Shown: in pieces, positions 4,062 to 17,004 of the stretch
Position numbering within the stretch: position 1 is the stretch's first letter
How the letters are laid out: each line of letters begins with the position of its first letter
From: Albidovulum marisflavi
Lineage (GTDB): Bacteria; Pseudomonadota; Alphaproteobacteria; Rhodobacterales; Rhodobacteraceae
DNA: 64,000 nucleotides
Direction of reading: 5' to 3'
Assembly (NCBI RefSeq): GCF_025751435.1
Contig: NZ_JAOWKY010000001.1
Location: forward strand, 976,001 to 1,040,000
Notes under the pieces: generated by a model
Databases searched by the model: none
Seen by the model: the letters and a program-made list of their open reading frames with translations, nothing else
What the model was told of the DNA's origin: nothing
Made by a program: the position numbers and the translations under genes

Positions 4062-6359
4062 ATGAACAAGGCGATCACGGATGGGCTGGCGCTGATGCCG
4101 CCTGCTTTCGAAGACGGGCTCGACATGTGGTCGAGAGAGGATGGCACGCCGGGATCGGCCACCTACGAGGGGTCCGCGAACGCGGCGCTGGTCACGGCGG
4201 ACCAGGATTTCGGCGCCTGCCTTGAGATGATCAAGACCGATACGACGCAGAAGCTGCGCTGCATGGTCGAGACTCCCGTCCTGCCCGGTTGCTACCTGCG
4301 CGTGACGGCGCGCGTGAAGGCGATCAGCGGCAACCTGCCCGCGGTCCGAATTGCCGCTTGGGCAGGCACGTCGGGCAACGCGCACCTGGCCGGCGTGGCC
4401 GAGACCGGCCCTGGCGTGGCACTGACCGCCTACGGCAAGGTCGAAACCGTCCAGGCAATAATCGGGACCGGCGCGCGCCAGGGCGTGGACATGGCCTGGG
4501 GAGCGTCGGCGATCTTCTGCCATGTGGGCCTTGACCTGACGGGGGCCAACGGCGGCGTCGTTCGGATCGACGACATCGAGGTCGAGGACGTCACCTCGGC
4601 CTTCCTGCGCGACCTCATGGATTGGGTGGATGTGCGCGATTATGGCGCGAAGGGCGACGGCGCAACGAACGACGCCGCCGCATTCGATGCCGCGGACGCC
4701 GCCGCCGCGGCATCGGGGCGGACGCTGCTTGTTTCGTCAGGCAGCTACTTTCTGGACGCGGATGTGACGCTTGAAGCGCCCGTGCGGTTTCAGGGGACCC
4801 TGACCATGCCCGTCAACAGGCGGCTGGCGATCACCCGGAACTACACGCTTGACGCCTATATCGACGCGTTCGGTGACGAAGAGGAAGGGTTCCGCAAGGC
4901 GTTCCAGGCGCTGATCAACTTCACTGACCACGACTCGCTCGACATGGGCGGCCGAAGGGTCAACGTCACGGCGCCGATCGACATGCAGGCCGCGGTCAGC
5001 AACAAGACCACGTTTTTCACCCGGCGCGTGATCCGCAATGGCCAGTTCGAGGTCGAGGACGGGCCCGCATGGGCTCCGACCGTCGTGACCTCGATTGCGA
5101 CCTACAGCACGTCGAGCGATACGACGCTGACCTCTGTCGCGAACATAGCCGGGATCGCGCCCGGATCGCTGGTTCAGGGGAATGGCGTCGGGCGCGAGGT
5201 CTATGTGACCTCGGTCAACGTCGGGGCCGGCACGCTGAAGCTGAGCAAGCCGCTGCACGATGCCGCGGGCACGCAGACGTTCACCTTCACGCGGTTCAAG
5301 TACGTGCTGGACTTCTCGGGCTTCTCCGCACTGGACAAGATGTCGCTGGCGGAAGTCGAAATCCAGTGCAACGGCGATGCGAGCGGCATCCTGCTGCCGC
5401 CATCGGGCAAGAATTTCCTGATCCGGGACTGTGCCATCAACCAGCCGCGGGATCGGGGCATCACCTCGCATGGCGATGGATGCCAGGGCATGGAGATCGA
5501 CCGCTGCCAGTTCCTGTCCGCGGAAGTGTCGCTGCCGGCGCAGGACCGCGTTTCGATCCTGTTCAACACCAACGGGAACGACGTCAAGGTGCGGGAATGC
5601 CGCGCGGTTCGCTTCCGGCATTTCGGCGTCGTCGGCGGCAACAACAACCTTTTCATCGGCAACCACTTCTTCCAGGGCGACAACCAGTCGAACAGTGTGC
5701 GGCTGGCCGGCCTGGTGCTGGCCGGCAGCAACCTGTCCACGACGATCACCGGTAACTATGTCGACAACTGTTTTATCGAGGTCACGAACGAATACGAATC
5801 CGATCCGGGCTTTGCCAACCAGTTCTCCTTCGGGGGGCTGACGATCACAGGGAACACCTTCGTCGCCTCGGATGTGGCCAGATGGTTCAGCTGGATCGTG
5901 TTCAAGCCCTACGGTCCGGGACACTTCATCGAGGGGCTGAACCTGACGGGCAACACCTTCAAGGTCTTCAACGGGTCGATCGACCGGGTGGACAAGGTGG
6001 ACACGACCTATGCCCAGCTGGACAACAGCCGGATGGAAAACATCCTGGTCCAGGGTAACACGTTCCGTTCGGTCGACTGGCCGATCGCCAACCCCGTGAC
6101 GGTCGAACATGTGCAATCGACGACCGCGACGACCTGGACGATCGATCCTTCGGCGCGTCTGCCCTTCGGCGGGTGGGCCCGGAACGTGGACGCCATCGTC
6201 TCGGAAGGAGTGATCACCGGAAATACCGGCGAACGGCGCGCTGACATGCCCTATGTGACAGTAGAACAGGGGGCGGCCAAGCAGCAGGTCACGCTGCACT
6301 GGGCCAATCTATCGAAGGGGCGTGTTCACGTCAGGGTGCGCATGGACAATCCGACCTGA
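4062..6359 (+). CDS. Right-handed parallel beta-helix protein (pectate lyase / GH28-related, tail-spike-like)
   Basis: 765 residues without signal peptide or membrane segment. Residues 1-185 look like a beta-sandwich carbohydrate-binding module. At about 192 the sequence DYGAKGDGATNDAAAF is the N-terminal hallmark of pectate-lyase-superfamily (Pectate_lyase_3) beta-helices and phage tail spikes. From about 430 to 690 there are recurrent Asn/Gly-rich rungs (GNTF, ITGN, GNYVDN) typical of parallel beta-helices. No catalytic residues could be assigned. It stands alone: no phage, capsule or secretion genes adjoin it. From memory, Rhodobacterales carry close homologues of this length and opening sequence, and a gene-transfer-agent head-spike role (GhsB-like) is possible but unverified. 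Confidence 0.8.
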   Translation: MNKAITDGLALMPPAFEDGLDMWSREDGTPGSATYEGSANAALVTADQDFGACLEMIKTDTTQKLRCMVETPVLPGCYLRVTARVKAISGNLPAVRIAAWAGTSGNAHLAGVAETGPGVALTAYGKVETVQAIIGTGARQGVDMAWGASAIFCHVGLDLTGANGGVVRIDDIEVEDVTSAFLRDLMDWVDVRDYGAKGDGATNDAAAFDAADAAAAASGRTLLVSSGSYFLDADVTLEAPVRFQGTLTMPVNRRLAITRNYTLDAYIDAFGDEEEGFRKAFQALINFTDHDSLDMGGRRVNVTAPIDMQAAVSNKTTFFTRRVIRNGQFEVEDGPAWAPTVVTSIATYSTSSDTTLTSVANIAGIAPGSLVQGNGVGREVYVTSVNVGAGTLKLSKPLHDAAGTQTFTFTRFKYVLDFSGFSALDKMSLAEVEIQCNGDASGILLPPSGKNFLIRDCAINQPRDRGITSHGDGCQGMEIDRCQFLSAEVSLPAQDRVSILFNTNGNDVKVRECRAVRFRHFGVVGGNNNLFIGNHFFQGDNQSNSVRLAGLVLAGSNLSTTITGNYVDNCFIEVTNEYESDPGFANQFSFGGLTITGNTFVASDVARWFSWIVFKPYGPGHFIEGLNLTGNTFKVFNGSIDRVDKVDTTYAQLDNSRMENILVQGNTFRSVDWPIANPVTVEHVQSTTATTWTIDPSARLPFGGWARNVDAIVSEGVITGNTGERRADMPYVTVEQGAAKQQVTLHWANLSKGRVHVRVRMDNPT

Positions 6360-6394
6360 CCATCGGCGGGCGCGACCGTCGCTGTAACACAGAT

Positions 6395-6446
6395 GGCCGG
6401 TGGCGATGCGGATCGCGCGATGCATCCGCAACGCAGCCGGCCTTTT
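6395..6446 (+). terminator. Probable rho-independent terminator of the beta-helix gene
   Basis: Outer stem GGCCGG (6395-6400) pairs with CCGGCC (6437-6442), and an inner stem TGCGGAT (6407-6413) pairs with ATCCGCA (6424-6430). TTTTG follows. It lies 36 nt after the beta-helix stop and before the convergent HugZ-like gene. The long, interrupted stem lowers confidence. Confidence 0.5.
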
Positions 6447-6481
6447 GCTTTGTCACATGGGCAAGTTTGGGCCCTGCACGC

Positions 6482-6976
6482 TCATCCGGCCGCGAAATCT
6501 GTACGAAGCAGCAGAAAAGCCTTGCCGAAGCCGGCGTTCAATGCGGCGCTTTCGATCTCGAAAACAACGAAATGAAAATCCGCGAAATCGGCGTAAAGCC
6601 CGGACTTCGGATGATCGGATAGCCATCTGGCACGGATCGCCGAATGCTCCGGCGCCTGGCGATCAACGAAACGTGCCCGTACCGAAAGCGTCAGGCGTGG
6701 ATGGGTCAGCGGGTCGCCGCGTGATCCCGGCTCTCCGACAAGGAGCGAGGCCCTCGGGTCCGCCGCAAGCGCACGGGTGTGCACCGACAGATCCGAGATC
6801 AGAGTGACGGGCGCGCCATCAGGCGCAAGGCCGAACCCGACCCGGGTCACATGCGGGGTGCCAGTGTCGGGATGCAGCACGCCAAGAGCCGCGAAGCGTG
6901 CGGAACGCATCAGTTCCTGGGCCAGTTCCCGCGCTTCGTCGTCGGTTTCCCTGATGGGTGAGGGCTTGTCGGTCAT
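6482..6976 (-). CDS. HugZ-like pyridoxamine 5'-phosphate oxidase-fold protein
   Basis: 164 residues with the split-barrel flavin/haem fold of the HugZ family. ELMRSARFAALGVLHPDTGTPHVTRVGFGL opens the barrel and DPRASLLVGEPG with DPLTHPRLTLSVRARFV forms the central strands. HugZ-type proteins bind haem or flavin and are linked to haem utilisation. The C-terminal DUF2470 domain of long HugZ proteins is absent, so this is the short form. No haem-uptake gene is nearby. The start at 6976 is supported by GGAG about 9 nt upstream. It could equally be a general flavin reductase. Confidence 0.75.
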   Translation of the reverse strand: MTDKPSPIRETDDEARELAQELMRSARFAALGVLHPDTGTPHVTRVGFGLAPDGAPVTLISDLSVHTRALAADPRASLLVGEPGSRGDPLTHPRLTLSVRARFVDRQAPEHSAIRARWLSDHPKSGLYADFADFHFVVFEIESAALNAGFGKAFLLLRTDFAAG

Positions 6977-7410
6977 TCCGGCACTCCACCTGGCTGGTTC
7001 GACGGCGCGCCTGGGCCTGGCAAGCTGCCTTCGCCATCCGCGACGTCAGGCGAATCACTGATTCGCGTGATCGCTAACAGGCACTGTTGCATCTGTTCGA
7101 CATTCAATACCCCCTTTGCCGCGGGATTCGACGCTCCGCCCGCTTCCGGCGGCATTCCGCCTAAAACCGGCCGCGACCGCAACAGACATGATGCGGTAAA
7201 TCCAATGAGAATTCGAGGATCAGTCAATAAATTTACAGATATCCTAGATTGCCTGTGAAAGAATTAACAGGAAAACGCAATCAATAAAATGGGTTACGTA
7301 ATATTCGACAATTGGTTTACAGTGGCCGCGTGACACCTGGTGCCCGTGATCAGCCAAGCGGCGGCGTGAGGTGTCCCGTGGGGCGCAAATGACAAGTGGA
7401 GGATCATGCG
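6977..7410. promoter_or_regulatory. Regulatory region upstream of acs
   Basis: A 434-nt non-coding stretch. Bases 7190-7320 are clearly AT-richer than the flanks. They contain the inverted repeat CCTGT-N10-ACAGG (7252-7271) and an 8-bp palindrome TTACGTAA (about 7295). These are plausible operator or promoter elements for the acs cluster, but no consensus for a named regulator was recognised. A short open frame across it lacks coding character. Confidence 0.45.
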
Positions 7411-9384
7411 ATGGCCGGTAGAGATCAGGGTTCAGCCGAGGCGAATTCAAAGCATCCCATTCCTCCTGGTTTTGAAAACGCAGTGGTTACGCCTGATGCC
7501 TACAAGGCGATGTACGCCGCCTCGATGTCGGATCCCGAAGCCTTCTGGGGCGAGCAGGGCAAGCGCATCGACTGGATCACGCCCTACACCAAGGTGAAGA
7601 ACACCAACTTCAACTTCGGAGAAGTGTCCATCAAGTGGTTCGAGGACGGCGTGCTGAACGTCGCGGCGAACTGCATCGACCGCCATCTGCCGACGCGTGG
7701 CGATCAGGTCGCGATCATCTGGGAGCCGGACGACCCCAGCACCCCGGCCAAGCACATCACCTACAACGAGCTGCACGAAAAGGTTTGCCGCATGGCCAAC
7801 GTCCTGCTCAGCCAGGGCGTGATGCGTGGCGACAGGGTCGTGATCTACCTGCCGATGATCCCCGAGGCCGCCTACGCGATGCTGGCCTGCGCGCGGATCG
7901 GAGCCATTCATTCGATCGTCTTCGCGGGCTTCTCGCCCGACGCCCTTGCCAACCGGATCAATGACAGCGACGCCAAGCTGGTCATCACGGCCGACAGCGC
8001 TCCGCGCGGCGGCCGGCGCACGCCGCTGAAGGCCAACACCGATGCGGCCCTTCTGCACTGCAAGGACAAGGTGCGCTGCCTTGTCGTCAAGCACACCGGG
8101 GACCAGACCAGCTGGGTCGATGGTCGCGACGTCGACGTGCTGGCGCTGATGGAAACCGCGGCGCCCGACTGCCCGGTGCGTCCGATGGGGGCGGAAGATC
8201 CGCTGTTCATCCTCTACACCTCCGGCTCGACCGGCAAGCCCAAGGGGGTTGTCCACACCTCGGGCGGCTATCTGGTCTATGCCTCGATGACCCACCAGAT
8301 GACCTTCGACTACAAGGACGGTGACGTCTTCTGGTGCACGGCCGACGTGGGTTGGGTGACCGGCCACAGCTACATCATCTACGGCCCGCTGGCGAACGGC
8401 GCCACGACGCTGATGTTCGAGGGCGTGCCGACCTATCCGGACGCGGGCCGTTTCTGGGCGGTTTGCGAAAAGCACAAGGTCAATCAGTTCTACACGGCGC
8501 CGACCGCCATCCGCGCTCTGATGGGCCAGGGGCCGGAGTGGGTGGAAAAGCATGACCTGTCGTCGCTGCGTGTGCTGGGCTCGGTCGGCGAACCGATCAA
8601 CCCCGAGGCTTGGGTCTGGTACGACAAGTACGTCGGCAAGGGCAAATGCCCCATCGTGGACACCTTCTGGCAGACCGAGACCGGCGGCCACATGATCACC
8701 TCGCTCCCTGGCGCGATCGAGACCAAACCGGGCGCGGCCACGCTGCCGTTCTTCGGGGTGAAGCCTGCGGTGCTGACCGCCGAAGGTGGCCAACTGGTTG
8801 AGGGCAACGGGGTCGAGGGCGTGTTGTGCATCGCCGACAGCTGGCCCGGTCAGATGCGCACGGTCTGGGGCGACCACGAGCGCTTCCAGCAGACCTATTT
8901 CGAGCAATACAAGGGCTACTACTTCACCGGCGACGGCTGCCGCCGGGATGAGGACGGCTACTACTGGATCACCGGCCGGGTCGATGACGTGATCAACGTT
9001 TCGGGCCACCGCATGGGCACCGCCGAGGTCGAAAGCGCGCTGGTTGCGCATGCCAAGGTCGCCGAGGCCGCCGTCGTCGGCTATCCGCACGAGATCAAGG
9101 GACAGGGCATCTACGCCTATGTCACCCTGATGAACGATGTGGAACCGACCGAGGAGCTGCGCAAGGAGCTTGTCAAGTGGGTCAGGACCGAGATCGGGCC
9201 GATCGCCTCTCCCGACCTGATCCAGTGGGCACCGGGCCTGCCCAAGACCCGTTCGGGCAAGATCATGCGCCGCATCCTGCGCAAGATCGCGGAAAACGAC
9301 TTCGGGGCTCTGGGCGACACCTCGACCCTGGCGGATCCGTCGGTCGTGGATGACCTGATCGACAACCGCATGAACCGGGGCTGA
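7411..9384 (+). CDS. acs: Acetyl-CoA synthetase (AMP-forming)
   Basis: Activates acetate to acetyl-CoA through acetyl-AMP, releasing AMP and PPi. 657 residues, normal family length. The adenylation P-loop [11 protein letters not shown] starts at residue 269; the C-terminal motif SGKIMRR holds catalytic Lys617, the residue acetylated by Pat-type enzymes. The CoA-site segment reads [11 protein letters not shown], where relatives usually have DEGVRGGRKIP; its two Arg are kept. The ATG at 7411 follows GGAGGA (7398-7403) at 7 nt; an upstream GTG at 7396 overlaps that site and is rejected. First gene of the cluster running to 17004, four nucleotides before adk. Confidence 0.97.
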
Positions 9385-10128: not shown

Positions 10129-10386
10129 ATGGCGGATAAATCTTCATCCAACGCCTATTGGGCTGCCAATATCCGGCTGATCAGGGTTCTCCTGATCGTC
10201 TGGGGCTTGGTGTCCTTCGGCTTTGGGATCTTGCTGCGCCCGATGCTGTCGGGTGTCGGGGTCGGCGGAACCGATCTTGGCTTCTGGTTTGCCCAACAGG
10301 GCTCCATTCTCGTGTTCCTGGTTCTGATCTTCGTTTATGCCGCGCGCATGAACAAGCTCGACCGTGAACACGGCGTGGAAGAATAA
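10129..10386 (+). CDS. DUF4212 protein, small subunit of a sodium/solute symporter
   Basis: 85 residues with two predicted membrane helices (about 15-37 and 50-72) and a family-typical opening (YWAANIRLIRVLLIVWGLVS). DUF4212 proteins are encoded directly before SSS-family symporters and are thought to be their small membrane partner. The gene is 15 nt before the large subunit and has the Shine-Dalgarno GGGAG. Substrate is probably acetate or another short carboxylate, inferred from acs upstream. Confidence 0.85.
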   Translation: MADKSSSNAYWAANIRLIRVLLIVWGLVSFGFGILLRPMLSGVGVGGTDLGFWFAQQGSILVFLVLIFVYAARMNKLDREHGVEE

Positions 10387-10401: not shown

Positions 10402-12159
10402 ATGGATCAGTATACCCTTAACCTGCTGATCGTCGGCGCGACCTTCGCGCTGTACATCGGCATCGCCATCTGGGCCCGCGCGGGCTCGACGAGCGAATTC
10501 TACGCCGCCGGCCGCGGCGTTCACCCGGTCATGAACGGCATGGCCACCGGCGCTGACTGGATGTCGGCGGCATCGTTCATCTCGATGGCCGGCCTCATTG
10601 CCTTCGGCGGCTACGACACCTCGGCCTACCTGATGGGCTGGACCGGCGGCTATGTGCTGCTGGCGATGCTCCTGGCACCGTACCTGCGCAAGTTCGGCAA
10701 GTTCACCGTGCCGGAGTTCATCGGCGACCGCTTCTATTCGCCGACGGCGCGCCTTGTGGCGGTGGTCTGCCTGATCGTCGCTTCGGTCACCTACGTTATC
10801 GGCCAGATGACCGGCGTGGGCGTTGCATTCTCCCGCTTCCTGGAAGTGGAGAATTCCACCGGTCTCTACATCGGTGCGGGCATCGTGTTCATGTACGCGG
10901 TTCTTGGCGGCATGAAGGGCATCACCTACACGCAGGTCGCCCAGTATGTCGTCCTGATCATCGCCTACACGATCCCGGCGGTCTTCATCTCGCTGCAGCT
11001 GACCGGCAACCCGATCCCGGGCCTGGGCCTGTTCTCGAACGATGTCGCGACGGGTCAGCCGCTTCTGTCGACGCTTGAAGGGCTCGTGACCGATCTCGGC
11101 TTCAAATCCTACCTGAGCCAGTCCGACACGACGTTGAACATGGTTCTGTTCACGGCTTCGCTGATGATCGGTACCGCCGGTCTGCCGCACGTGATCGTCC
11201 GCTTCTTCACCGTTCCGAAGGTCGCCGACGCGCGCTCCTCGGCCGGCTGGGCGCTGGTGTTCATCGCGCTGCTTTACCTGACCGCCCCGGCGGTTGCGGC
11301 GATGGCGCGTCTGAACCTCATCAACACCTTCCATCCGAACGGCGTGGGTGAAGCCACCCTGACGCTCGCGGAAATCGAAGCTGGTGTGGATGCCCAGGGC
11401 AAGGACATCACCTGGGTGAACAACTGGGCGAAAACCGGTCTGCTGAAGTTCGACGACAAGAACGGCGACGGCATGATCCAGTATGTCGGCGACAAGGACG
11501 CCAACGAGCTGACCGTGAACAACGACATCATGGTTCTGGCCAACCCGGAAATCGCGAACCTGCCGGGCTGGGTCATCGCTCTGGTCGCCGCCGGTGGTCT
11601 TGCCGCCGCGCTCTCGACCGCAGCGGGCCTTCTGCTGGCGATCTCGTCGGCGATCAGCCACGACCTGATCAAGGGCGCGATCAACCCGAAGATCTCGGAA
11701 CGGGGCGAACTGCTGGCGGCGCGTATCTCGATGGGTGTTGCCATCGCGGTCGCGACCTACCTCGGCCTCAACCCTCCGGGCTTTGCGGCCCAGACGGTGG
11801 CGCTCGCCTTCGGTCTTGCTGCGGCCTCGCTCTTCCCGGCGATCCTCATGGGGATCTTCTCGAAGCGCATCAACAACACCGGCGCCGTTGCCGGGATGCT
11901 GGCTGGCCTGCTTGTGACGGTTGTCTACATCTTCCTTCACAAGGGCTGGTTCTTCATCCCCGACACCAACAGCTTCACCGACGCCGATCCGCTGCTCCTG
12001 TCGATCAAGTCGACCTCGTTCGGCGCGGTTGGTGCGATCGTCAACTTCGTGGTTGCCTACGTGGTGTCCAACGCCACCGAGGAACCGCCGGTCGAGATTC
12101 AGGAACTGGTGGAATCGATCCGCGTCCCGAAGGGCGCAGGTGCGGCCACCGGTCACTGA
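10402..12159 (+). CDS. Sodium:solute symporter, large subunit (VC_2705-type SSS, ActP-related)
   Basis: 585 residues with about 13 membrane helices and an SSS signature (TSEFYAAGRGVHPVMNGMA near 30, ADWMSAASFISMAGL near 52). This subfamily pairs with DUF4212 and is related to the acetate permease ActP. A hydrophilic loop of about 75 residues (315-390) holds D-K-N-G-D-G-M-I at 352-359, an EF-hand/dockerin-like loop. The acs neighbourhood points to acetate or a similar monocarboxylate. I do not give the symbol actP because the pairing with DUF4212 marks a distinct subfamily. Confidence 0.9.
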   Translation: MDQYTLNLLIVGATFALYIGIAIWARAGSTSEFYAAGRGVHPVMNGMATGADWMSAASFISMAGLIAFGGYDTSAYLMGWTGGYVLLAMLLAPYLRKFGKFTVPEFIGDRFYSPTARLVAVVCLIVASVTYVIGQMTGVGVAFSRFLEVENSTGLYIGAGIVFMYAVLGGMKGITYTQVAQYVVLIIAYTIPAVFISLQLTGNPIPGLGLFSNDVATGQPLLSTLEGLVTDLGFKSYLSQSDTTLNMVLFTASLMIGTAGLPHVIVRFFTVPKVADARSSAGWALVFIALLYLTAPAVAAMARLNLINTFHPNGVGEATLTLAEIEAGVDAQGKDITWVNNWAKTGLLKFDDKNGDGMIQYVGDKDANELTVNNDIMVLANPEIANLPGWVIALVAAGGLAAALSTAAGLLLAISSAISHDLIKGAINPKISERGELLAARISMGVAIAVATYLGLNPPGFAAQTVALAFGLAAASLFPAILMGIFSKRINNTGAVAGMLAGLLVTVVYIFLHKGWFFIPDTNSFTDADPLLLSIKSTSFGAVGAIVNFVVAYVVSNATEEPPVEIQELVESIRVPKGAGAATGH

Positions 12160-12218: not shown

Positions 12219-14042
12219 TTGAGCGACGTTGAAGGGATTGCCGCGTTTCTCGCAACCGTACACCCCTACGACAGCCTGCCGCGGGACGAACTGGCGCGTG
12301 TCGCCGGTTCCTTCAGCCGCAGGGAAACCCCGGCCGGGACCGAAATCTACGCGTTCGGCGATCCGATGTCCGGCCTGTTCCTGATCGAGGCCGGGGGCGT
12401 CGAGATACTGGACAGGAACGGCGGCCTTGTCTCGCTTCTGGGTGCGCGCAACTCGTTCGGCGAACGCGGGCTCTTGCGTGACGGCCTGGCGGTGACGACG
12501 GCGCGCACGACCGAGGACAGCCGGCTGCTGCTTTTGCCCGTCACTGAACTGCGTCGGTTGATTACAGGCTTTCCCGCCTTCGAACGGTTTTTCAACCGCG
12601 CGCGCGGAAGCGAGGCGCGCGCCAATGACCTGAGCGCGCGCAAGGTCGCCGATCTGATGGCGCGCGACCCGATCGCCTGCGGTCCGGACACGACCGTGAC
12701 GAGCGCAGCGCAGCAGATGCGCGACGCGCATGTCTCAAGCCTTGGCGTGACCGACGATGCGGGACGGCTCTTGGGGATCGTCACGACGCGGGACCTGTCG
12801 AATCGCGTCCTGGCCGAGGGTCTGGACGGAACGGCGACGGTGCGCGCCGTCATGACCTCCGATCCGGTGACGCTGACGCCCGAGGCGCTTGGCACCGACA
12901 TTCTCCACCTGATGCTGGAGCGCAAGATCGGCCACCTGCCCGTCGTGCGGGATGGCCGGTTTGCCGGCATGATCACCCAGACCGACCTGACCCGTTTCCA
13001 GGCACTGTCGTCAGCCGTCCTGATCCGCGATCTGTCGGATGCCGAAACCGTCGAGGAGATGGCGGCGGTGACAGCCCGCATCCCTTCGCTTCTGGTGCAG
13101 CTTGTGGGCGGCAACAACGCGCACGAGGTGGTCACGCGCCTTGTCACCGACATTGCGGACGCGGTCACGCGCCGCCTTCTGGCCCTGGCCGAGGCGGAAC
13201 TGGGCGCGCCACCTGTCCCCTATCTCTGGCTGGCCTGCGGTTCGCAGGGGCGGCAGGAACAGACCGGCGTGTCCGACCAGGACAACTGCCTGATGCTCGA
13301 CGATTCCGTGACCGCGGATGACATGGGCTACTTCCGCGATCTGGCCGTGCGGGTTTCGGACGGGCTGAACGCCTGCGGTTACGTCTACTGCCCGGGCGAC
13401 ATGATGGCGACGAACCCGCGCTGGTGTCAGCCCGTCAGCGTCTGGCGCGACTACTTCCGCGGCTGGATCGCCACGCCCAATCCAGAGGCGCAGATGCTCG
13501 CCTCGGTCATGTTCGATCTGCGCCCGATCGGCGGCGCGGCCAGCCTGTTCGGAGACCTGCAGTCCCAGACGCTTGAGTCGGCGTCGAAGAACTCGATCTT
13601 CGTTGCGCACATGGTTTCGAACTCGCTCAAGCATACGCCGCCGCTTGGCCTCTTGCGGGGGTTCGCGACGATCCGTTCGGGCGAGCATCGCAATCACATC
13701 GACCTGAAGCACAACGGGGTGGTGCCTGTCGCGGACCTGGCGCGCGTCTATGCGCTGCAGGGACGGCTGGCGCCTGCAAACACCCGCGCGCGCCTGCTGG
13801 CCGCGGCAGAGGCTGGCGTGATTTCCGCCTCGGGCGCGCGTGACCTGACCGAGGCTTACGACCTGATCGCGGAAACCCGGCTTGAAAACCAGTCCCGGCA
13901 GGTCAAGGCAGGGCGGAAGCCCGATAATTACCTTGCCCCCTCCGACCTGTCGGACTTCGAGCGCAGCCATCTGCGCGACGCCTTCGTCGTCGTGAGGACC
14001 ATGCAGTCGGCTGTGGGGCAGGGCAAAGGCATGTTGGGATAG
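12219..14042 (+). CDS. cNMP-binding / CBS-pair / DUF294 putative nucleotidyltransferase
   Basis: 607 residues. A cyclic-nucleotide-binding domain (about 20-125) is followed by two CBS motifs (about 145-275, of the type that binds adenylates). A DUF294 GlnD-type nucleotidyltransferase domain comes next, with G341-S342-x2-R345 and the metal pair Asp353/Asp355 (SDQD), then a DUF294 C-terminal domain. The start is TTG at 12219, supported by TAGGAGG five nt upstream. The catalytic motif looks intact. By family logic it transfers a nucleotide to an unknown target under control of cNMP and adenylate levels. Target and direction of control are not known. Confidence 0.88.
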   Translation: MSDVEGIAAFLATVHPYDSLPRDELARVAGSFSRRETPAGTEIYAFGDPMSGLFLIEAGGVEILDRNGGLVSLLGARNSFGERGLLRDGLAVTTARTTEDSRLLLLPVTELRRLITGFPAFERFFNRARGSEARANDLSARKVADLMARDPIACGPDTTVTSAAQQMRDAHVSSLGVTDDAGRLLGIVTTRDLSNRVLAEGLDGTATVRAVMTSDPVTLTPEALGTDILHLMLERKIGHLPVVRDGRFAGMITQTDLTRFQALSSAVLIRDLSDAETVEEMAAVTARIPSLLVQLVGGNNAHEVVTRLVTDIADAVTRRLLALAEAELGAPPVPYLWLACGSQGRQEQTGVSDQDNCLMLDDSVTADDMGYFRDLAVRVSDGLNACGYVYCPGDMMATNPRWCQPVSVWRDYFRGWIATPNPEAQMLASVMFDLRPIGGAASLFGDLQSQTLESASKNSIFVAHMVSNSLKHTPPLGLLRGFATIRSGEHRNHIDLKHNGVVPVADLARVYALQGRLAPANTRARLLAAAEAGVISASGARDLTEAYDLIAETRLENQSRQVKAGRKPDNYLAPSDLSDFERSHLRDAFVVVRTMQSAVGQGKGMLG

Positions 14043-14050
14043 GACGGACG

Positions 14051-14554
14051 ATGATCTGGGATCTTGTTGCGATGGTGACGGCGGGTGTCGGCGGGGCAGG
14101 GATCCTGCTGCTGGTCGCCAGGGTGCTGCGCGTGAAATTGCCCAGGTGGGCGGTTCCGGCGACGGCTGGCGTCGCGATGTTCGTCTTCGCGGTCTGGAAC
14201 GAATACGCGTGGTATCCCCGCGTTCGCGATGCGCTGCCCGAAAGCGTCCGCATCGTCTCCGCTCCGGCCGACGCAGCGTTCTACCAGCCCTGGACCTATG
14301 CCTTCCCGATCGTCCGGCGCTTCCTTGCGGTCGATCTCGGGTCTGCCATCCATTCCGAGACCGAGCCGCAACAGTTCGTCGCCCCCGTGATGTTCATCGA
14401 ACGCTGGACACCGGTCAGACAGCTGCCGTTCGCCTTCGATTGCGCGAACGGCCGTCGGACCGACGTCTTCCCGGGTGGCAGGATCGAGGACGCCGAATGG
14501 GTGACGCCTGGACCGGAGGACGACCTTCTGGCCACGGCCTGCGCGGGAGGATGA
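14051..14554 (+). CDS. Unknown membrane protein in the acs cluster
   Basis: 167 residues that I do not recognise. Two predicted membrane helices (about 5-27 and 37-52) are followed by a soluble domain of about 110 residues containing two Cys (DCANGRR and TACAGG). It starts 8 nt after the DUF294 stop and ends 1 nt before the REC gene, so it is part of the same transcript and probably works with them. A short periplasmic or cytoplasmic accessory to the sensor or symporter is conceivable, without direct evidence. Confidence 0.75.
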   Translation: MIWDLVAMVTAGVGGAGILLLVARVLRVKLPRWAVPATAGVAMFVFAVWNEYAWYPRVRDALPESVRIVSAPADAAFYQPWTYAFPIVRRFLAVDLGSAIHSETEPQQFVAPVMFIERWTPVRQLPFAFDCANGRRTDVFPGGRIEDAEWVTPGPEDDLLATACAGG

Positions 14555-14555
14555 C

Positions 14556-14957
14556 ATGGCGGACAGCGCGACGAAGCCACGGGTTCTGGTTGTCGAGGAC
14601 GAAGACAATATCGCCATCGCGCTTGATTATCTGCTGACGCGAGAGGGTTACGCGCACGACCGCGTCGCGAATGGCTCCGAGGCGATGCCCCGGATCCGTT
14701 CGGATCGTCCGGACGTGGTTCTGCTGGACGTGATGCTTCCCGAAGTCTCCGGCTACGAGATCTGTCAGGACATCCGCATGGACCCTGACCTGCGCGGGGT
14801 CAAGATCCTGATGATGACGGCCCGCGGCTCGGCGATGGAGCGGCGAAAGGGGCTTGCCTTGGGGGCCGACGGCTTCATCGCGAAACCCTTCGAACTGAAA
14901 GAACTGCGCGAGGAGCTCAGGCGGCTGATCTCTGACGAGGGGAACGCAGATGCTTGA
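14556..14957 (+). CDS. Single-domain response regulator (REC, CheY-like)
   Basis: 133 residues, one receiver domain and no output domain. The acidic pocket (Glu14-Asp15), phospho-acceptor Asp58 (LLDVMLP), Thr88 (MMTARG) and Lys110 (AKPF) are all present, so it should be phosphorylatable. GGGAGG precedes the ATG by 5 nt. It overlaps the next gene by 8 nt, indicating coupled translation with the membrane sensor/exonuclease protein. That neighbour lacks the phosphodonor His, so the phosphate source is unclear. Confidence 0.92.
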   Translation: MADSATKPRVLVVEDEDNIAIALDYLLTREGYAHDRVANGSEAMPRIRSDRPDVVLLDVMLPEVSGYEICQDIRMDPDLRGVKILMMTARGSAMERRKGLALGADGFIAKPFELKELREELRRLISDEGNADA

Positions 14958-17004
14958 GAAACTGAGCCTCAGGCTCAGGGTCTTTCTGTTCTTTGCCTTT
15001 CTGGCGGTGGGTAGCACGGCCGCGATCGTTCTGGGACTGTGGGTCGGATACCACCGGATCGAAAGCGCGGGTCCCATGTCGGCATTCGTCATGGCCGGCC
15101 TGGTCTCAGGCTTTGCGATTATGGGCCTGTGTGCCTGGGTTTGGTTCCTGTTCGACGAAAACGTCGCCCGCGCCATCGGCCGCATCGCGGGCGGGATGCG
15201 GGCCGAAGCCCATGCGGGCGGGGCGACGCTGAACGAAACCGTGGCGCGCTATCTGGGCGACCTTGCGCCAGCCGCCGCCGCGGTCACCGAAACGCTGAGC
15301 GAAACCCGGAACGCGCTGGCCGAGGCCGTGCAGCGCGAAACCGTGCGGCTGGCCGACGAAAAGGCGCGGCTTGAAACGCTTCTGGCCGATGTGACGGTTG
15401 GTGTCCTGCAATGTTCGGCCGATCATCAGCTTGTCTTCTACAACGGCCAGGCCGTCGACCTGTTGGGGGCCGGTGCCACGCCGGGACTGGACCGCAAGGT
15501 TTTCGCCTATCTGCGCGAAGGCCCCGTCCGGCAGGCGCATGACCGGCTTGTCGCCATCGGCGACGCCGAAGCGGTTTCGGACCTGCTGTGCGCGACAGTT
15601 GCGGGCGCGCGCGTTCTTGCGGCCCGCATGCGCCTTGTCCCTGACGGGGGGTATGTTCTGACTCTGCGCGACGTCACCGGTGACCTGGCCGCCCATGCTG
15701 CGCGCGAGCGGCTGCTGGCCGAGGTCTTCGACCGCATCCGCCGTCCCGCCGCGAACCTGCAAACGGCGATCAGCGTGATTGCCGAGGGTGAAGACGCGCC
15801 CGAGGTTTCCGCGGCGATGGTCGAGGACGCGACCGCGCTTGCGCGCGCGATCAACGACCTGGCCGCGCGCTACGATGCCGAGCGCGCGGGCTGGTGGCCG
15901 CTGCCCATGGTGCGCGCGACGGACCTGACCGACTCTCTTCGCGCGCGGGCCGAGGCTGGCGGGCTTTCGATGACCTCCAAGGCACCCGATCTGATCCTGC
16001 GCTGCGACGGGTTCGAGATCGTGGCGCTGATCTCGGGTCTTGCTGAGGCCGTGGCCGGACTGACCGGGCAACGCGCCTTCGACCTGGTCATGGCAGAGGA
16101 CGGCGCCGGGGCGGTGATCGACCTTGTCTGGACAGGCGAGCCGGTGGCGGTGGGCTGGCTCGATACCTGGCTCGCCCGCCCGGTCGACCCCGCAGCGCCC
16201 GATGTCACGGGGCGGACGGTGCTGGACACCCATGCGACCGAATGCTGGCCCGAACGCCGCGCGCATGGCCGCGCGGCGATCCGCCTTCCGCTGCGCGACG
16301 CCCGCCGCGCGGCCCGCCGTCCGGCCCCCATAAGCCGCAGTGTCGTCTATGACTTCGAGCTTCTGTCCAAGGCGCGCAACGCCGCGGTGATGGAAACGCC
16401 GCTGACCGATCTGACCTACGTCGTCTTCGACACCGAGACAACCGGACTGCTGCCCAGCCAGGGGGACGAGATCGTTCAGCTTGCCGCCGTCCGCATCGTC
16501 AACGGCCGCCGGGTCGAGCGCGAGGCCCTGGACCTGCTGGTCAACCCCGGCCGCTCGATCCCGCCACGCGCGACCGAGGTTCACGGCATCACCGAAGCCA
16601 TGGTGGCCGACGCGCCCAGGATCGGAGAGATCGGACGCAGGTTCCACGACTTTGCCGAGGGCGCGGTGCTGATCGCGCACAATGCGCCGTTCGACATGGA
16701 GTTCCTGCGCCGCCATGAAGTCGACATCGGTCTTCGTTTCGACAACCCGATCCTGGATACGGTGCTGCTGTCGGCGGTCGTCTTCGGCCAGGGGGAAACC
16801 CACAGCCTTGACGCCCTGACGCACCGGCTGGGCATCACCATTCCCGAAGAGGCGCGCCACACGGCGATCGGCGATACGCTGGCCACCGCCGACGCCTTCC
16901 TGAAACTGCTACCGATGCTGGAAGCGCAGGGAATACGGACGTTCGGCGACGTTCTGGCCGAGGTGAAGAAGCACGGGCGCCTTCTGAAAGACCTGAACGC
17001 CTAG
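14950..17004 (+). CDS. Degenerate membrane histidine kinase fused to a DEDDh 3'-5' exonuclease (DnaQ-like)
   Basis: 684 residues. Two membrane helices (about 8-32, 43-68), a linker/coiled coil, then a PAS-like domain (about 140-245). A HisKA-like helix follows, in which the H-box reads VFDRIRRPA: Asp261 replaces the phospho-acceptor His. The segment 290-450 resembles an HATPase but lacks recognisable N and G boxes. Residues 487-670 are an intact DnaQ-family exonuclease with Asp494, Glu496, Asp582, His637, Asp642. So the sensor half is probably a non-catalytic signal or scaffold module that controls a nuclease acting on a nucleic acid or nucleotide bond. Cluster neighbours suggest a link to carboxylate uptake. 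Confidence 0.88.
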   Translation: MLEKLSLRLRVFLFFAFLAVGSTAAIVLGLWVGYHRIESAGPMSAFVMAGLVSGFAIMGLCAWVWFLFDENVARAIGRIAGGMRAEAHAGGATLNETVARYLGDLAPAAAAVTETLSETRNALAEAVQRETVRLADEKARLETLLADVTVGVLQCSADHQLVFYNGQAVDLLGAGATPGLDRKVFAYLREGPVRQAHDRLVAIGDAEAVSDLLCATVAGARVLAARMRLVPDGGYVLTLRDVTGDLAAHAARERLLAEVFDRIRRPAANLQTAISVIAEGEDAPEVSAAMVEDATALARAINDLAARYDAERAGWWPLPMVRATDLTDSLRARAEAGGLSMTSKAPDLILRCDGFEIVALISGLAEAVAGLTGQRAFDLVMAEDGAGAVIDLVWTGEPVAVGWLDTWLARPVDPAAPDVTGRTVLDTHATECWPERRAHGRAAIRLPLRDARRAARRPAPISRSVVYDFELLSKARNAAVMETPLTDLTYVVFDTETTGLLPSQGDEIVQLAAVRIVNGRRVEREALDLLVNPGRSIPPRATEVHGITEAMVADAPRIGEIGRRFHDFAEGAVLIAHNAPFDMEFLRRHEVDIGLRFDNPILDTVLLSAVVFGQGETHSLDALTHRLGITIPEEARHTAIGDTLATADAFLKLLPMLEAQGIRTFGDVLAEVKKHGRLLKDLNA

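Follow-up and report, generated by a model that had tools for sequence, protein, structure and literature searches.

A membrane-anchored DEDDh exonuclease fused to a predicted pseudo-histidine kinase and encoded next to a stand-alone receiver in Albidovulum marisflavi

The fusion protein and its receiver gene

The 64,000-nucleotide stretch of Albidovulum marisflavi DNA analyzed here (the window; contig NZ_JAOWKY010000001.1, positions 976,001 to 1,040,000) carries, at 14950..17004 on the forward strand (as are all window genes below), a gene with an ATG start encoding a 684-aa protein that joins a membrane anchor, a PAS-like domain, a pseudo-histidine kinase module and a DEDDh exonuclease. Two membrane helices, called from hydrophobic stretches in the sequence together with AlphaFold helices (residues 7-35 and 42-89 in the model), lie within residues 7-66 (14968..15147) and are followed by a long helical linker up to residue 146. 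The PAS-like domain, residues 148-248 (15391..15693), was recognized from strands and helices of the model and from a Pfam PAS_7 match below the 27-bit cut-off (E 3.5e-4, 21.1 bits). Between it and the exonuclease, the model places long helices at 243-278 and 284-315 and then an alpha/beta domain at 320-453; a Pfam scan of the 684-aa protein left about 250-490 blank, with no HisKA or HATPase_c match up to E 1. The AlphaFold model of the full protein, computed from the window protein and 78 relatives, had a pLDDT of 81.8 and a pTM of 0.51.

The DEDDh 3'-5' exonuclease domain (approximately residues 489-655; 16414..16914) matched Pfam RNase_T (PF00929) at 491-650 (E 4e-36, 125.5 bits, cut-off 24), and by structure comparison this part was nearest to PolC, DinG and DnaQ (Z ~20-25; 24.8 for the PolC exonuclease domain and 21.7 for DnaQ). 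The catalytic set is complete (D494, E496, D582, H637, D642), and each of these residues was kept in every aligned sequence among 136 unique receiver-adjacent relatives (135, 135, 135, 134 and 134, respectively, the rest being gaps). The fold and all five catalytic residues are held in common with DnaQ (Pol III epsilon), PolC, DinG and RNase T; unlike these, the window exonuclease is membrane-anchored and joined to a PAS-pseudokinase module. A separate DnaQ-like gene is present in the same genome (G000:C2:277766-278269; G and L numbers denote our genomes and loci, G000 being the window genome). An earlier note, made from this sequence alone, had described two membrane helices, a PAS-like domain and a HisKA-like helix fused to a complete DEDDh exonuclease, and the AlphaFold model, the RNase_T match and the five residues agree with that description; a search for loss of the DEDDh residues across relatives found none.

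Upstream of the exonuclease gene, and overlapping it by 8 bp, lies the gene for a stand-alone receiver (RR1; 14556..14957; 133 aa; Pfam Response_reg 5e-27) with the phospho-acceptor D58 and with T88 and K110. The receiver gene also overlaps or abuts the exonuclease gene in other classes. Every one of 136 unique receiver-exonuclease pairs had the receiver's phospho-Asp and Lys, and 134/136 had Thr or Ser.

The fusion is widespread. A first set of 61 genomes (own, genus, family and class) gave matches in 58 at a loose threshold that included DnaQ, and held 23 near-full-length copies, the window's own among them. The class sample at 1e-35 had matches in 95/289 genomes, mostly exonuclease-only, with eight full-length forms in other families; the family sample at 1e-60, in 115/246; and the phylum sample at 1e-45, in 42/299, with full-length forms in other classes. 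Among the best 80 of 438 relatives, carriers included Defluviimonas, Frigidibacter, Gemmobacter, Thioclava, Cereibacter and Rhodobacter capsulatus. The 23 near-full-length copies in the first 61 genomes, together with the same layout in other classes, place the fusion beyond chance. Shorter natural forms were also observed, namely transmembrane (TM)-PAS-exonuclease proteins of ~470-550 aa and TM-exonuclease proteins of ~310 aa, as were exonucleases fused to CBS-DUF294 or placed behind a transporter-like membrane domain; at L046 and L047 the latter resembles, by eye, an EamA/DMT-type multi-helix transporter. Open-licence literature yielded no description of such a fusion or of this exonuclease, although one may be published elsewhere.

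The pseudo-histidine kinase module

Residues 244-460 were modelled alone, as a second structure aligner had listed only exonuclease matches for the full model, and gave a pLDDT of 85.7. All 50 of the PDB rows listed by Foldseek and the second aligner for this model were, by title, histidine kinases or kinase-like proteins (phytochromes, LvrB), with DivL (4q20) at Foldseek rank 2 (E 8e-9). The catalytic and ATP-binding (CA) domain of PrrB superposed with Z 14.2 and a root mean square deviation (rmsd) of 2.8 over ~130 residues. DivL aligned with Z 12.4 over 194 residues and an rmsd of 14.6, indicating that its dimerization and histidine phosphotransfer (DHp) helices and CA domain are oriented differently relative to each other. 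Residues 244-460 are thus predicted to take a DHp plus CA fold, with a two-helix pseudo-DHp at residues 243-315 (15676..15894), assigned from the model, profile alignment and conservation and containing D261 and R264, and a degenerate CA (HATPase-fold) domain at residues 320-453 (15907..16308), assigned from the PrrB match and residue counts.

A profile of the relatives aligned across the whole region with four kinases from the same genome (E 2e-5, probability 77%). This kinase profile held only those four, the H-box pattern having missed 20 of 25 kinases and one match being too short. The DHp part carries the match; the CA part alone was weak (hhalign probability 2%, E 0.021), and its identity as a CA domain is drawn from the predicted structure. 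The register places D261 under the H-box His, where the earlier note had put it, and W394 under the G1-box Asp.

Conservation was counted over 129 unique full-length, receiver-adjacent relatives and, where stated, over all 136 unique receiver-exonuclease pairs. Position 261 was Asp in 90 of the 129, Glu in 32, Ser in 2, Ala in 2, and Thr, Gln and Met in one each; His occurred in 0/129 and 0/136. The G1 Asp position, 394, was Trp in 127/129 (134/136 in the wider set), the N-box positions 363 and 367, taken from the profile register, were Asn in 0/136 and 3/136, and the stretch corresponding to the G2 box and ATP lid fell in a gap of the kinase alignment. Other positions were nearly invariant: R264 was kept in 127/129, P266 in 116/129, G396 in 128/129, H428 in 127/129 and W433 in 129/129, W394 and G396 forming a pattern L-x-W394-x-G396. 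From these residue counts, the module appears to have lost its catalytic residues long ago and to have a conserved set of its own. Its kinase chemistry is, judged by sequence, gone, since the residues for ATP binding and phospho-His are lost; the receiver, by the same measure, retains the chemistry that the pseudokinase has lost. An intact ancestor was also looked for: of the full-length forms taken from the class, phylum and family samples, none had an H-box His.

These counts bear out the earlier note in finding no recognizable ATPase boxes, and its proposed survey of position 261 came out consistently, as neither the His nor the ATP boxes reappear in any relative examined. Its word "remnant" does not fit a region that is under constraint, has a predicted DHp plus CA fold and keeps R264 in almost all relatives. 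A reading in which the middle region is a decaying kinase, junk being lost, draws on its partial or complete deletion in several lineages; it is highly improbable for a region found in several classes of the phylum with R264, W394, G396, H428 and W433 kept in 127-129 of 129 relatives.

A close known system is DivL of Caulobacter, a dead kinase that binds phosphorylated DivK (DivK~P) through the usual receiver-docking surface (PMC4211667, cited from excerpts; PDB 4q20). The two proteins have in common the DHp plus CA fold, a dead histidine kinase with the His replaced, a PAS domain upstream and an Arg at His+3. By the H-box register, R264 occupies the position of DivL R553, and the R553A substitution weakens DivK~P binding, according to the same excerpts. 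A stand-alone receiver is the input of DivL and is likely the input of the window protein. The two differ at the His site, which is Tyr in DivL and Asp or Glu in the window protein and its relatives, and in the kinase boxes: DivL retains N, G1, F and G2, as those excerpts describe, whereas the window protein has lost the N and G1 residues and has G2 in a gap. DivL acts on another kinase (CckA), whereas the window protein has an exonuclease output in the same chain and, unlike DivL, has its receiver encoded next door. We describe the protein as one that works like DivL and do not file it as a DivL member, because of the lost N, G1 and G2 boxes, the acidic residue in place of Tyr and the nuclease output of its own.

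Receiver co-occurrence, operon context and candidate kinase

DHp helices and an adjacent receiver were scored over 156 loci, each a distinct exonuclease domain: 76 had both, 75 neither, three DHp only and none the receiver only, with two undecided. The DHp criterion (Arg at column 264 and enough residues) was chosen after viewing the alignment, and the borderline loci L253 and L261 were scored DHp-negative. The search for an adjacent receiver was extended from -60 to -160 nt once six loci had turned up at -62 to -149, and the receiver was examined in 91 of the 115 matching family genomes (80 + 11). The Fisher value for this co-occurrence ignores ancestry and is not taken as a probability. Among the receiver-less loci, those that still encode a long protein (L099, L201-L204, L247-L249, L251 and others) have a deleted or scrambled DHp helix 1, and their PAS and CA-like domains stay. 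Where the DHp was lost the receiver was lost too, and the PAS domain, and often the CA domain, was retained; because the surviving PAS coding sequence separates the receiver gene from the DHp, the joint loss is not one deletion. Locus L337 has, at 8336-8677, a degenerate receiver-like frame (Response_reg, 18.4 bits) 5' of an exonuclease with an eroded DHp motif, which may be a case of the two decaying together.

A tree of 90 rows was built without the DHp and CA columns (it omits L261, L262 and L263, of which L263 is discordant, and its L060 row is from another family). On it, DHp and receiver states matched in 90/90 rows with seven changes each, and independent pairs on well-supported branches agreed in 4/4 cases (seven pairs over all branches). 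In 31 receiver-less genomes the best receiver match elsewhere in the genome stayed at or below 106 bits, and in 16 receiver-bearing genomes the match reached 123 bits or more, a gap indicating that the orthologue is gone rather than moved.

The receiver and exonuclease genes close an operon in the order DUF4212, VC_2705-type symporter, DUF294 protein, 167-aa protein, receiver, exonuclease. It begins with a DUF4212 small symporter subunit (10129..10386; Pfam/NCBIfam) and a VC_2705-family sodium/solute symporter (10402..12159; NCBIfam TIGR03648, 828 bits). Next comes a cyclic-nucleotide-binding/CBS/DUF294 nucleotidyltransferase (DUF294_C; 12219..14042), identified by Pfam and found by the flank survey to be a conserved neighbor. 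The 167-aa protein (14051..14554) has no Pfam or NCBIfam match; it is conserved in the operon within the family, where it is kept between the DUF294 gene and the receiver/exonuclease genes, in kinase-less operons as well. A defence role was considered and set aside: in PADLOC the exonuclease part matched nothing beyond generic DEDDh and PDC-S48 entries, the receiver matches were weak, and neither the DUF294 protein nor the 167-aa protein was matched; the symporter context also disfavors such a role.

Of 126 loci flanked by at least 3.5 kb on each side, 118 had a DUF294 gene within 4 kb; this count includes some genomes twice. In five relatives, exonuclease and DUF294 are one protein (L103 8062-10317, L104 6503-8638, L113 6764-8908, L119 8043-10265 and L340 8549-10783); Pfam confirms the fusion in one of the five, and in L103 it also finds two CBS domains. 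Such single-protein encoding is a sign that the exonuclease and the DUF294 enzyme work together. A comparable pair is known from Pseudomonas putida KT2440, where pp_0354 (CBS) and pp_0353 (RNase_T), targets of MxtR/ErdR (CrbS/CrbR), form one operon. Deletion of pp_0353 impaired growth on pyruvate and not on acetate, deletion of pp_0354 had no such pyruvate effect, and the authors speculate about mRNA degradation and call the precise role of pp_0353 unclear (PMC9927547, in the excerpts cited here). The CBS gene precedes that of the RNase_T-family exonuclease as in the window, a likeness drawn from the published description. The Pseudomonas aeruginosa homologues adjoin actP and yjcH, and a link to pyruvate/acetate use is a further point of likeness. 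For pp_0353 the same excerpts report RNase_T only and do not describe a sensor, pseudokinase or receiver. For Pseudomonas fluorescens, a CBS/nucleotidyltransferase protein belonging to the CrbS/R context has been predicted to work through nucleotidylation (excerpts of PMC5715377). RNA as the exonuclease substrate is our guess by analogy with these systems.

The DUF294 neighborhood raises an alternative that is compatible with the pathway proposed below: the exonuclease and DUF294 protein may be an add/remove pair acting on a shared substrate (an RNA 3' end or a nucleotidylated protein), the sensor halves being secondary and lineage-specific. The proximity and fusions of the two genes speak for it, as does the variation of anchor and PAS domain among relatives; the P. 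putida pyruvate defect, seen in the exonuclease mutant only and not in the CBS-protein mutant (PMC9927547, excerpts), speaks against it. We regard it as a possibility to be held with some doubt.

Outside the family, 22 distant loci with a DHp had sufficient flanking sequence, and 14 of these encoded a transporter-type (SSF-type) histidine kinase within 3 kb; in 12 the kinase gene came directly downstream in the same orientation. Some of the 14 loci are closely related to one another. The family locus L262 also has such a kinase, at 55 bp. Where measured, these kinases span ~840-975 aa from stop to stop and have a transporter-like N terminus. HisKA and HATPase_c were above cut-off in all eight proteins scanned, seven of them belonging to the 14 loci and one to L071, and the SSF symporter domain in 2/8 (L071 and L328). 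CrbS and MxtR (SSF-STAC-HK, per excerpts of PMC5715377) represent the general kinase type found beside the receiver-exonuclease pair in many distant relatives; these are intact kinases, which the window protein is not. The window genome encodes one full-length homologue of the L328 kinase (45% identity) on another contig, at G000:C6:96281-98962, with HisKA and HATPase_c above cut-off and no SSF match at E 0.01. At L350 (G000:C6, window genome) the kinase at 6282-8975 stands beside a short-chain fatty-acyl-CoA-type regulator at 4640-5950. In the family, an SSF-type kinase was present in 77/80 genomes, both with and without DHp and receiver, so receiver loss tracks the DHp much more closely than it tracks the kinase.

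A proposed pathway and its alternatives

Starting from direct observations (the predicted fold, the loss of kinase residues, the intact exonuclease and receiver residues, the operon context and the joint presence or loss of DHp and receiver), we consider it probable that this membrane-bound DEDDh exonuclease is governed by a repurposed histidine-kinase module through receiver docking, a separate kinase and nuclease switching. The co-encoded stand-alone receiver would use the DHp helices as its docking site. It would be phosphorylated by another, intact kinase, for which the SSF-type histidine kinase is the best candidate, and would then dock on the DHp in a phosphorylation-dependent manner. 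Receiver binding, together with PAS and membrane input, may alter the module's conformation or dimer state and, through it, exonuclease access or activity. The exonuclease probably trims RNA 3' ends with the neighboring DUF294 nucleotidyltransferase, in a programme that may be tied to uptake of small carboxylates (acetate, pyruvate). The earlier note had proposed a sensor that switches a nuclease rather than signaling by phosphotransfer; the note is right about the dead kinase and incomplete as to phosphotransfer, for it overlooks the adjacent intact receiver that tracks the DHp, through which phosphotransfer probably enters.

Several observations weigh against this proposal. Loci L061 and L218 carry a DHp without an adjacent receiver, and L263 has a DHp with only a degenerate receiver-like frame upstream (Response_reg 18.4 bits). 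The phylogenetic agreement comes from only four well-supported independent pairs (sign test p 0.125). Receiver-exonuclease covariation had no DHp signal, with 4 of the 60 top pairs in the DHp versus ~6.6 expected by column share; being dominated by shared ancestry (effective number ~84), covariation was given no weight. The TM-PAS-exonuclease proteins of L070 and L071 have no kinase region, yet a receiver of this protein family and an SSF-type kinase lie within a few kb, an arrangement for which the docking model offers no account. The three family genomes without an SSF-type kinase (G389, G430 and G460) are all receiver-less, so some receiver-kinase link may exist. Lastly, in 43/44 family genomes (kinase and receiver coordinates compared by eye) the SSF-type kinase has its own receiver paralogue just upstream, 36-49% identical, and so may not serve the exonuclease-linked receiver. 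The window genome is the 44th: no second receiver was found beside its kinase within the fetched 15 kb, and at E 1e-19 the genome gave no stand-alone receiver of this protein family other than the exonuclease-linked one, making that receiver a plausible target for the kinase.

Some of the same observations suit an explanation in which the pseudokinase is a mere dimerization or signal-transmission spacer for the membrane/PAS sensor, and the receiver shares the operon while serving another kinase or effector. The TM-PAS-exonuclease relatives that lack the kinase region are common, implying that a PAS domain can join the exonuclease directly; most SSF-type kinases have a receiver gene of their own beside them; and L070 and L071 keep a nearby receiver without any DHp. 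A spacer is nonetheless unlikely, as receiver presence tracks the DHp and not the SSF-type kinase, the PAS domain or the exonuclease, the receiver and exonuclease genes overlap or adjoin each other even in other classes, and R264 is nearly invariant.

Less likely again is a module that still acts enzymatically on the receiver, for example as a phosphatase via Asp/Glu261 or a bound water, with signal flowing from sensor to receiver and the exonuclease passive. Position 261 is acidic in 122/129 relatives and would face a docked receiver, and the receiver chemistry is intact. Set against this are the loss of the ATP residues of the CA domain and the case of DivL, a pseudokinase of the same fold reported to have neither kinase nor phosphatase activity (PMC4211667, excerpts). 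The exonuclease catalytic residues are, moreover, kept throughout and the domain survives loss of DHp and receiver, which points to the exonuclease as the constant output.

Our preferred reading, an exonuclease governed by receiver docking on a dead kinase, can be extended, more tentatively and with somewhat less than even confidence, to a two-component pathway run in reverse, in which a transporter-like kinase would signal to a free receiver, the receiver to the dead kinase and the dead kinase to an exonuclease turned on or off at the membrane, with DUF294 and the exonuclease as a write/erase pair.

The usual targets of two-component receivers are transcription, second messengers or motors. 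If the reversed pathway is true, two-component signaling would set the turnover of RNA (or of a nucleotidylated substrate) at the membrane directly and not via transcription. A phospho-receiver would control a nuclease through a dead kinase, making this a pseudo-histidine kinase with a direct enzymatic output and a second, widely distributed example of the DivL principle, one that natural variants shedding DHp and receiver together make testable. It would also indicate a function for the exonuclease/DUF294 pair beside carboxylate-type symporters, and would be a new route for a two-component pathway to reach a nuclease.

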